DNA from: a virus
Virus record (IMG/VR): IMGVR_UViG_3300031569_000028
Location: 1 to 29,811 of that record
Reading direction: 5' to 3' (one strand)
Length of the DNA: 29,811 nucleotides
Of the stretch, positions 23,060 to 28,514 are shown piece by piece (position 1 is the first letter of the stretch; the number at the start of each line of letters is the position of its first letter). The notes beneath the pieces were generated by a model. It ran no database searches. It was given only the letters and a program-made list of their open reading frames with translations, and was not told the origin of the DNA. Made by a program: the position numbers and the translations under genes.

Positions 23060-23374
23060 ATGTCAGACATAAAATATACAGATGAGATGACAGATGAGAT
23101 GGCAGAAGAAATTATAAAAGAGATTCCAGAAGTTATAGACGAAGCTCCAAAAAAAGTTAAGACTCTAAAGAAAGCCAACCAAAAGTTTGCGGCTCCCTAT
23201 GGCTCTGAAAAATCGGTTGGCAAGAATGTTGATGTGAAGTGTTCTAGCAGCAACAGAAAGGCTAGTTATGACTCAAATGCTCAACAGCTAACAATTACCC
23301 AGAACGGTATAACGATAATGGTTAGCCCCTGTAAAACAGAGAGGCAAGCTATAAGACTAGCTGCTAAGTTCTAA
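23060..23374 (+). CDS. Hypothetical protein (104 aa)
   Basis: A 104-residue protein with AAGGA before the ATG. The N-terminus has the short tandem unit TDEMTDEM, from a 12-base direct repeat (about 23080-23103), an acidic region, a Lys-rich linker (APKKVKTLKKANQKFAAPYG) and a strand-rich C-terminal domain (QLTITQNGITIMVSPCKTE). It is the last plus-strand gene of the late region and overlaps the end of the converging minus-strand gene by 11 bases. I recognise no family. Confidence 0.6.
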   Translation: MSDIKYTDEMTDEMAEEIIKEIPEVIDEAPKKVKTLKKANQKFAAPYGSEKSVGKNVDVKCSSSNRKASYDSNAQQLTITQNGITIMVSPCKTERQAIRLAAKF

Positions 23375-23771
23375 AGCCATGACCCCTGTATGGATTTTTA
23401 TCAGAGACATCAAATTCTAAAGGTCTCTGATAAATTTTGTACGATTGAAGAAGGTATTCTGTTTTTCCAATTGCCATGCGTTTGATAGTAGAACCTTTTC
23501 TTAAAAAAATGCGCTGACGTAATCCATGCCCGTCCTCTTGGGCAATAATAGCCAGCCTGTAGAATGGACCAGACATAATGTCACCAAGTACCGGCTTGTA
23601 ATTGTAAACCTTCTCACCCTTTACAATTGTATGCGGTACACATTCTTTTGAATAAAAGCTCCAAAAGTTTTTCTTTGTTGTATTAGAATCAACTCTAAGA
23701 TTAGTCAAATCTATCCCAGCGACCAACTGACCGCCACGAGAATTAGTAGTAGCTTGTGCGAATCCACTCAT
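23364..23771 (-). CDS. Hypothetical phage protein (135 aa)
   Basis: A soluble 135-residue protein ending the minus-strand operon, its TAG stop lying inside the end of the converging plus-strand gene. It is beta-rich (VKGEKVYNYKPVLGDIMSG, YRLAIIAQEDG, RIFLRKGSTIKRMAIGKTEY), resembling a small DNA- or protein-binding domain, without a recognised signature. It starts directly after the NinG stop, so it is expressed with recombination genes. It might be an accessory replication or recombination factor, by context only. Confidence 0.6.
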   Translation of the reverse strand: MSGFAQATTNSRGGQLVAGIDLTNLRVDSNTTKKNFWSFYSKECVPHTIVKGEKVYNYKPVLGDIMSGPFYRLAIIAQEDGHGLRQRIFLRKGSTIKRMAIGKTEYLLQSYKIYQRPLEFDVSDKNPYRGHGFRT

Positions 23772-27064: not shown

Positions 27065-27093
27065 ATTATATTATAAGTTTTTAAAAATGTAAA
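27065..27093 (-). promoter_or_regulatory. Sigma-70-like promoter for the erf operon
   Basis: On the minus strand TTTACA (27088-27093) and TATAAT (27065-27070) are separated by 17 bases; a second overlapping TATAAT lies at 27070-27075. The -10 box is 31 bases upstream of the erf ATG. All bases between the array of repeats at 27106-27235 and the gene are AT-rich. Confidence 0.7.
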
Positions 27094-27105
27094 TATATTT
27101 AACTA

Positions 27106-27235
27106 ATAGAGGGCTAATAAGGAAAGATAGAGGGAAATTGCAATAGAAGAACTCAAGAGAACTCAAGAGAACTCGAAAGAACTTTCTAAGAACCTTCTAC
27201 CAAAAACTAAGTTCTAACCCTTAAAAACTAAGTTC
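27106..27235. repeat. Helically phased repeat array upstream of the erf promoter
   Basis: ATAGAGGG occurs at 27106 and 27127 (21 bp apart); GAACT begins 10-bp units at 27149, 27159, 27169 and 27179 (the first two are exact, GAACTCAAGA); AAAAACTAAGTTC occurs at 27202 and 27223 (21 bp apart) and carries the inverse, AGTTC. All sit immediately upstream of the -35 box. Spacings of one or two helical turns suggest bound protein on one DNA face. Confidence 0.75.
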
Positions 27236-27241
27236 CAAAAC

Positions 27242-27652
27242 TTATAAGCCTAGATTCTTCTTCATCTCAGCTATTCGCCTCCTCGCCTCATCTTTGCTTA
27301 ATACATTATCTTGCTTCTCAAGAGCGAATATCTTGTGAGACTTGTGGCTTTTAGTTAATCGGCATAACTGTCTGAAGTTAGGTAAATCCATAAATGCGGT
27401 ATGATCTTGTGCTGCTTTTATCCCATTCATGTATTCTTCTTCGCTAAAGTCTTTTGTCAGACTTCTATGCCAGACAGTCATTTCAGTTGACCCTACCTCG
27501 TGATGGGTCTTTCCCATTGCTTGTAATATCCTCCATCCCTTCGCCATCGTCTCCGATGAGATATTGCCTGAGTGCGCTGTCTGACTTTTCTGACTTTGTG
27601 AGTTGCTGTTGTTGATAAGTGTTGAGACTGATTTCATCGTCGAATCGTTCAT
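27242..27652 (-). CDS. Possible replicative helicase loader-like protein
   Basis: The 136-residue frame encodes ETMAKGWRILQAMGKTHHEV (35-54), VWHRSLTKDFSEEEYMNGIK and FMDLPNFRQLCRLTK, then a basic C-terminal helix. The 'W-x3-L ... E-x3-G-I ... LPNFRQLC' spacing recalls lambda P-like and DnaT-like loader proteins, but similarity is not strong enough for a firm name. The ATG at 27652 has GAGAGG 11 bases upstream and implies a 170-base out-of-frame overlap with the preceding gene; the in-frame ATG codons at residues 36 and 45 are possible shorter starts. Adjacent to the replication-type gene. Confidence 0.55.
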   Translation of the reverse strand: MNDSTMKSVSTLINNSNSQSQKSQTAHSGNISSETMAKGWRILQAMGKTHHEVGSTEMTVWHRSLTKDFSEEEYMNGIKAAQDHTAFMDLPNFRQLCRLTKSHKSHKIFALEKQDNVLSKDEARRRIAEMKKNLGL

Positions 27653-27890
27653 TGTTTAGATACCTCTCTACGTGTTGGAAGTTGGCTGAAAATTCACCAC
27701 GAATTCGTTGTAATTCTTTAGCCATACGTTGTTGCGTATAGTTTTCAATAATGAATTCAACATCATCGGAATCAATCTCCATTTTTATAAATACTTCTAA
27801 TGCCTTTATCTTGCTACCCTTTTCACCGTAATCAGTATCAAAAGATTTCCATAATCTTTCAAAAGATTCGGGATATTTTCTTCGTTTCAT
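27483..27890 (-). CDS. Putative phage replication protein
   Basis: A 135-residue protein, first gene of the minus-strand operon, with AGGGG before the ATG. The layout YPESFERLWKSF...GSKIKALEVF, IIENYTQQRMAKELQR and GEFSANFQHVERYLNNERFDD matches the helical 'F-x3-W ... K-x2-A-x3-F ... F-K-H-x2-R-W-L-N-x2-R-W' block seen in C-terminal regions of phage replication initiators and primosomal proteins. No N-terminal HTH domain is present, so it may be an accessory or a split initiator. The last 50 residues are polar and lie over the next gene in another frame. Confidence 0.6.
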   Translation of the reverse strand: MKRRKYPESFERLWKSFDTDYGEKGSKIKALEVFIKMEIDSDDVEFIIENYTQQRMAKELQRIRGEFSANFQHVERYLNNERFDDEISLNTYQQQQLTKSEKSDSALRQYLIGDDGEGMEDITSNGKDPSRGRVN

Positions 27891-27963
27891 ATAAACCCCT
27901 TAAATTTTAGACACAGTTACCTTAAAGGCGCTTCACGCCCTTTCGGAATTTTCTATCGCGCTA

Positions 27964-28093
27964 ACTCAGTCCAGTGTATCGAATATGGTATCTATTCAAC
28001 TGCATTAAGCATTAGCAGTTAAGGCTCTTTCGCTCACAGGTATCGCCGTCTCGTGGGTTTAAATATTCCCACGCCTAAGCCCACTGGCTGAGT
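27964..28093 (-). ncRNA. Candidate structured RNA element
   Basis: ACTCAGTCCAGTG (27964-27976) pairs with CACTGGCTGAGT (28082-28093) over 12 bp with a single bulged T. Enclosed are GAATA/TATTC (27981-27985, 27993-27997), AACTGC/GCAGTT (27998-28003, 28015-28020) directly adjacent, and CGTGGG/CCCACG (28052-28057, 28068-28073). The stem could form on either strand; the minus strand is favoured because it would be the leader of the replication operon starting at 27890. No known riboswitch consensus was recognised. Confidence 0.4.
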
Positions 28094-28231
28094 GTCGATA
28101 GGTGGATTGCTGAAGATATAGGGGAGGTGATAGGATTACCCTGTCGGGTGTCCAAAATACTGCCTCTCTCAAATATCGGACTTTAGGCGCGCCAACGCCA
28201 CCGACTCACTTATTAAATACTGACCCATCTC

Positions 28232-28245
28232 AAATGTATACATTT
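28232..28245. promoter_or_regulatory. 14-bp perfect palindrome, candidate operator
   Basis: AAATGTATACATTT is its own reverse complement and lies next to the second copy of the imperfect direct repeat. A dimeric helix-turn-helix regulator, such as the one encoded at 24881-25249, would be a suitable binder. Confidence 0.5.
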
Positions 28246-28397
28246 TTGATCGTTTTCTACCTACGCGATTTTAACTTCTTATTAGACATAGACTAAGACT
28301 AGCCTTTAAAACGCTATGGTGACGTTCTAAGACGTTCCTAGCGTATCTATACAGCATCTCTAGCACCTCTCTCTATATCTCTATATATACCTATATA

Positions 28398-28429
28398 TAG
28401 CTCTAAATAGCTCTAATTTAGCTCTAATT
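28398..28429. repeat. AT-rich TAGCTCTAA iteron-like repeats
   Basis: TAGCTCTAAA (28398-28407), TAGCTCTAATT (28408-28418) and TAGCTCTAATT (28419-28429) are tandem units of 10-11 bp, preceded by related CTCTATAT stretches from 28371. They lie at the start of the most AT-rich part of the gap, the usual setting of an unwinding element. Confidence 0.7.
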
Positions 28430-28514
28430 TACATTTATTCTTAATTAAAATATTTAATAGAATCAATACGTTATGCAATTATTAAAAATAAGTGCTATAT
28501 ATGTATAAATAATC

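Follow-up and report, generated by a model that had tools for sequence, protein, structure and literature searches.

A conserved noncoding stretch directly ahead of the replication genes of a virus raises the question of which RNA is encoded there, on which strand and over what length, and what it might do. The DNA analyzed, here called the window, covers 29,811 nucleotides (positions 1 to 29,811 of IMG/VR record IMGVR_UViG_3300031569_000028). A sequence-only reading had pointed to a multi-helix RNA candidate at 27964-28093, and the 12-bp stem described there, with a single bulged base and 105 bases inside, was recovered between ACUCAGCCAGUG (28093-28082, minus strand) and CACUGGACUGAGU (27976-27964). 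The inner helices were present as well, namely P6/P7 (CGUGGG/CCCACG), P8 (AACUGC/GCAGUU) and a third hairpin (GAAUA/UAUUC) that is small and weak, and the distance of 74 bases between the stem element and the gene start at 27890 had been given correctly. The element is real, but it had been reported too short, as it reaches 28205 upstream and a Shine-Dalgarno sequence downstream.

When 27964-28093 was folded against 150 dinucleotide shuffles, a control proposed with that reading, z-scores of -3.7 for the minus strand and -3.6 for the plus strand were obtained; as these are nearly equal, energy alone cannot pick the strand. In the homologue alignment, 25 G-U cells versus 10 A-C cells were counted on the minus strand, an excess that favours this strand, to which the features below belong unless stated otherwise. 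Covariation, another check proposed there, was scored for helices P1-P8 in 12 aligned sequences, where the 50 pairs are formed in 94.5% of cells. Compensatory, two-sided changes were found at 19 of the 50 pairs, compared with 6.8 in shuffles (0 of 500 reached 19) and 2-5 in slid versions. Within the reported element, hereafter domain 2 (27964-28093), such changes occur at five of the 12 pairs of the closing stem P5, one of five in P6 (28077-28081 with 28023-28027), three of six in P7 (28068-28073 with 28052-28057) and six of eight in P8 (28015-28022 with 27996-28003, spanning 27996-28022), the loop of which, UAAUGCUUAA, is nearly invariant. The P5 stem of the divergent locus L116 is rebuilt from other letters (ACAGUUUUGGUG/CACCAAAAACUGU versus ACUCAGCCAGUG/CACUGGACUGAGU in the window). 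Domain 2 also contains unpaired segments of good conservation; for P4 the alignment is poor and the support partial. Searches against Rfam 15 with the window, its homologues and the group B sequences described below gave nothing at the gathering cut-off, the best hits lying far below it, and at relaxed thresholds the same set also remained empty, with the ROOL/GOLLD models unmatched. The covariation and the lack of an Rfam match support the earlier claim of a conserved structured RNA, without known family, in the replication-operon leader. Two outcomes that would have spoken against that claim, a fold no more stable than shuffles and homologues lacking covarying pairs, were thus not obtained. 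No tRNA or tmRNA was found in the window, DNA searches gave no credible similarity to named phages or plasmids, and none of the GTDB genomes was matched by the RNA pattern (a single strict pattern) or by the O-like alignment.

The whole leader or origin RNA corresponds to a conserved noncoding block of ~310 nt (27896-28205) that runs from the promoter to the Shine-Dalgarno sequence in 10 close and two divergent homologues; its predicted +1 lies at ~28205, and it would continue into the mRNA of the O-like gene. This start lies 6 nt past a sigma70-like -10 box, and the end is the Shine-Dalgarno of that gene. This sense promoter (28212-28240) consists of the -35 hexamer TATACA (28235-28240), a 17-bp spacer and the -10 hexamer TTTAAT (28212-28217), 6 nt before GUCGG, and in each of the 38 distinct loci scored the -10 and GTCGG are 5-7 nt apart. 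The promoter scores 7.5 in the window and up to 12.4 in relatives, the strongest of which read TTGAAA-17-TATCAT. Elsewhere in the window, a strong sigma70-like promoter (TTTACA-17-TATAAT, 11/12) lies upstream of ERF at 27065-27093 (minus strand), and its -35 is of the type seen in the RNA promoter of the relatives. Toward the 3' end, a terminal hairpin, P10, is formed by AAAGGGCG-UGAAG-CGCCUUU (27924-27943); its stem letters vary with pairing kept in L003, L010, L017 and L079, as read by eye. Intrinsic attenuation at P10 was considered and rejected, since there are too few U residues and, in group B, UAAAA follows the corresponding element. No terminator was found at the 3' end of the RNA in the window, and conservation runs on into the Shine-Dalgarno AAGGGG (27896-27901), which is conserved ahead of differing first genes. 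Open reading frames and homologue comparison revealed no conserved ORF in the leader RNA, and thus no translated leader peptide of the IncI type.

Upstream of domain 2, the first 63 nt (+1 to +63; 28143-28205) form a 5' module, for which folds and covariation indicate a three-way junction of S0 (GUCGG at 28201-28205 with CCGAC at 28143-28147), P2 (28186-28199) and S2 (GUCC at 28178-28181 with GGAC at 28150-28153). Across loci, the folds place this junction in the first 56-70 nt. The first S2 pair is formed in all 37 loci compared, as G-C in 11, A-U in six and U-A in 20, a result reached in none of 5000 shuffles, where the S2 and S0 counts treat related loci as independent and changes at group level are few. 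The pair flanking S0 was equalled in 22 and the third S2 pair in 31 of 5000 shuffles; neither the second flank nor the two other S2 pairs gave added support. The S2 loop, GAUAU (28173-28177), is predicted to pair with AUAUC (28115-28119) as a pseudoknot, P3 (28115-28177), which in the alignment comprises 5 bp in the window and is predicted to reach 12 bp in relatives with differing sequences. The mean P3 helix score was 7.2 with a locus's own sequence, 4.8 with the downstream regions of other loci and 3.9 with shuffled sequence; for the window and L003, the best-match script favoured a different 7-bp match over the aligned P3. An alternative to S0 is P1, in which GUCGGU (28200-28205) pairs with AUCGAC (28094-28099), spanning 28094-28205 and paired in 98.6% of cells. 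Changes in P1 (GUCGGU/ACCGAC) are one-sided only and its 5' strand is contested by S0, so P1 is less certain than S0.

The 5' module proved to be the most widely shared part of the RNA. Searching with the protein encoded by the O-like gene (27483-27890) gave three relatives, scans with DNA patterns gave further loci, and an O-like protein profile contributed the divergent L116 and L117 together with L119, a partial locus that has a 3' part of its own. A pattern built from the 5' end only retrieved ~30 more phage loci, termed group B, in which the 5' module is shared, the 3' part is different and longer, and the RNA measures ~490-510 nt. The group B 3'-domain pattern in turn retrieved 47 further loci, most of which are expected to be real given the length of the pattern; 23-24 are distinct with a recognizable 5' module, while 22 (within L182-L228) have no recognized module within 420 nt, either because the module is more divergent or because the contig is truncated. 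In total, the 5' module recurs in >60 loci of uncultivated phages, a figure that comes from mostly fragmentary records and counts related sequences with no correction by a tree. L120 may be a further member of very high divergence. At L154 (5761-6150), a group B 5' module is fused to an unrelated 3' domain, an arrangement that suggests domain swapping in the RNA.

A second promoter-like site faces the sense promoter from within the RNA. It lies on the plus strand at a conserved position (28107-28136) and consists of TTGCTG (28107-28112), an 18-bp spacer and TAGGAT (28131-28136). The predicted antisense RNA would begin with GUCGGG, and its first 63 nt (28143-28205, plus strand) would be complementary to the 5' module. 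The CCCGAC closing S0 is invariant and reads GTCGGG on the opposite strand, and the antisense -10 ends 6-8 nt ahead of this GTCGGG in 38 of 38 loci; the site recurs with differing hexamers and near-fixed spacing. Compared with other positions on the same strand, its median percentile was 0.0009, with 35 of the 38 loci below 0.05 and 31 below 0.01; the site of the window alone is weak (p=0.034), and the antisense part of the argument for the window is carried by a position conserved in relatives, not by a strong site. Because the site had been seen on these 38 loci before scoring, it was tested on loci fetched independently of the region, and 21 of 24 obtained with a 3' pattern excluding the antisense region had it at p<0.01. 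Of the 20 group B loci with sufficient upstream sequence, 17, L130, L144 and L159 among them, have an intrinsic terminator for the antisense transcript (a GC hairpin with a T-run) situated 33-46 nt upstream of +1. Such a terminator is present in only five of the 24 loci fetched by the 3' pattern and was found in none of group A, the window included. In L130 and L144 the upstream NinG is oriented in the sense direction, and the antisense terminator therefore serves no adjacent gene. The antisense RNA of group B would be ~100-150 nt long. The leader of the ERF mRNA is a less likely source of such a transcript, since most of the loci checked show a leftward promoter-like site specific to ERF, and phages of the L130 type have no ERF there.

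The genes around the RNA were compared next. The RNA is flanked on one side by a block with ERF or NinG and on the other by replication genes, which in every context examined follow on the same strand: O/P-like genes in group A and L119, and in group B an SF2 helicase, alone or together with primase. The first gene varies, being O-like in the window and other small ORFs in L003, L010, L011 and L015-L017, which argues that the RNA is not a gene-specific leader. In the window, the first gene (27483-27890) encodes a replication protein that matches positions 172-277 of 383 in phrog_270 and 174-267 of 288 in phrog_9474. Phages with RepL match phrog_270, a replication initiation family, at positions 46-114, and the window protein is thus the C-terminal part only. 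Lambda O carries a DNA-binding half; judged from the profile positions, the O-like protein of the window appears to be without a DNA-binding domain. Its AlphaFold model is all-helical with low confidence (pLDDT 52), and no sequence relative was found in the PDB. The second gene of the operon (27242-27652) gave no family match and is, by position only, probably similar to the helicase loader lambda P. Vibrio phage 1.233.A and Pseudoalteromonas phages HS1 and HS5 have RepL or a replication protein at the place of the RNA, followed by the same helicase and primase. A domain search detected RepL in 1.233.A and HS1; in Vibrio 1.115.A it is annotated, yet it had no score in the Pfam search. RepL was absent from all RNA-bearing records searched, few of which are complete and many fragments, and no initiator protein was found in the group B modules scanned (G001 and G003). 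The RNA may stand in for the missing replication initiator protein. GC skew tracks gene strand and, where the genes all point the same way, passes the RNA without a switch; it is therefore uninformative as a test for an origin.

Several repeats and one additional gene were observed near these modules. Three direct repeats of 11-12 bp (TAGCTCTAA type) with AT-rich palindromes adjoin the RNA promoter at 28381-28430 of the window and could be iterons or operators. Short direct repeats of the GAACTCAAGA type lie between the ERF and P-like genes (27147-27200), and in L120 an array of ~30-bp repeats (AGACAACCA..CGAGTCA; ~2640-2990) immediately upstream of the O-like gene possibly represents iterons or a CRISPR-like array. 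A 135-aa protein encoded after NinG in the window (23364-23771, minus strand), at the position of lambdoid Q, had no Pfam or PHROG match.

Plasmid countertranscript control is known from ColE1 RNA I/RNA II and from the Inc RNA of IncI-type plasmids. In ColE1-type replication, an RNA-DNA hybrid cut by RNase H primes Pol I, and no initiator protein from the plasmid is needed. The phage RNA resembles RNA II in being a structured RNA upstream of replication, with a predicted antisense RNA facing its 5' end, in a length comparable to that of group B (~500 nt) and in group B modules where the scan found no initiator protein; it differs in that no sequence relation was found, that replication genes follow the RNA and that group A retains O-like and possibly P-like genes. 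In the RepZ leader of IncI-type plasmids (ColIb-P9), the loop of a stem-loop is the target of the Inc antisense and forms a pseudoknot with a distal strand. A loop-to-distal-strand pseudoknot overlapping the antisense target is also predicted here, as P3 (5 bp in the window), whereas neither leader peptide nor RepZ was seen and size and sequence differ. Among phages, RNA-based origins are described for mycobacteriophage prophages, most extrachromosomal ones of which have no repA and need a noncoding RNA region (Wetzel 2020, PMC7157519). These have ~400-500 bp of noncoding RNA where relatives use a protein initiator; unlike the present loci, they belong to different phages, adjoin parABS rather than ERF or a helicase and serve prophage maintenance (PMC7157519), and they are not known to have an antisense partner. 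In lambda, the convergent promoters pR and pO near the O gene influence replication (PMC3985674), and convergent promoter-like sites near an O-like gene are found here too; the OOP RNA made from pO differs in overlapping cII and in not being a large structured leader.

The earlier reading had offered a cis leader, a primer RNA and a small RNA without choosing among them, and had missed the larger RNA, its strand, the promoter, the 5' module and the antisense partner. Our results favour a countertranscript-type RNA that acts as leader or origin and governs phage replication, an explanation we regard as somewhat probable. What the computation shows is how the RNA folds and where it lies, the two promoter-like sites and, for many relatives, a terminator on the antisense strand; transcription, antisense action and the replication output are what we infer. 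The structured RNA would be made at the head of the replication operon from a promoter of its own, and its first ~60 nt would fold into the three-way junction, after which the S2 loop would pair with the downstream strand (P3) and organize the remaining RNA. The face-to-face promoter would give an antisense RNA complementary to exactly the 5' module; with this bound, neither P3 nor the downstream folds would form and replication would be held back. The productive fold would either prime or activate the origin in place of a DNA-binding initiator or let the replication genes be expressed. A stronger form holds that the RNA, built of a conserved 5' control module and 3' domains that can be exchanged, is itself the replication initiator (primer or origin activator) under antisense copy control, and that in many tailed phages it has taken the place of a DNA-binding initiator, either RepL or the N-terminal half of O; this form is tentative and rather doubtful.

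Other explanations account for parts of these observations. A cis-acting antitermination leader like HK022 put, where the nascent RNA would bind host RNA polymerase and read through early-operon terminators without a phage protein, is consistent with a conserved RNA that begins at the transcription start of a phage operon and shares its 5' module most widely, and with the absence of a recognized N- or Q-like gene in the modules scanned. The put RNA binds RNA polymerase through the beta' zinc-binding domain, and putL lies just downstream of PL (PMC9378689). However, put RNAs are antiterminators of ~70 nt with two stem-loops, compared with a three-way junction within 300-500 nt here, the operon strand of the window has no strong terminator, and the antisense promoter and terminator would be left unexplained; this explanation is improbable. 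It was an early guess, as was a simple hairpin leader, and both fell behind when the antisense site appeared. We give an equally low likelihood to a free, trans-acting RNA of the ROOL/GOLLD kind that is promoter-proximal to replication genes by happenstance. Those RNAs are likewise large and structured, occur in phages and measure several hundred nt (PMC12286853), and the size, elaborate fold and modular 3' domains found here would fit, whereas ROOL and GOLLD usually lie near tRNAs and are not promoter-proximal replication leaders. The absence of a nearby tRNA, of an Rfam match and of a 3' terminator in the window, conservation that enters the Shine-Dalgarno, and the constant position upstream of same-strand replication genes where context was examined all argue against it.

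A riboswitch-like or protein-autoregulated mRNA leader, with the antisense site as a by-product of conserved sequence, would agree with a long 5' UTR reaching the Shine-Dalgarno and with the conserved unpaired segments of domain 2. Its conservation ahead of different first genes speaks against this, as does an antisense site that recurs with varied hexamers at near-fixed spacing, often with its own terminator, and we consider it a poor candidate. That the block is a DNA element, such as a replication origin or recombination site with an incidental strand fold, matches its place at the replication module and is very improbable in view of the compensatory changes, the G-U excess on one strand and the fixed position relative to the promoter.

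Judged from the sequences, many aquatic phages would carry this RNA right where their DNA-replication genes begin, apparently paired with an antisense RNA. It would constitute a new RNA family absent from Rfam, with >60 loci in uncultivated phages and replication genes adjacent in each context examined, and as a countertranscript-controlled leader or origin RNA it would link large phage RNAs with plasmid-type antisense control of replication. With its common 5' module and swapped 3' domains, it would let modular RNA evolution and RNA folding switches be studied as a natural experiment. The finding also raises the testable question of whether the lytic replication of some tailed phages is begun by an RNA and not by a DNA-binding initiator.
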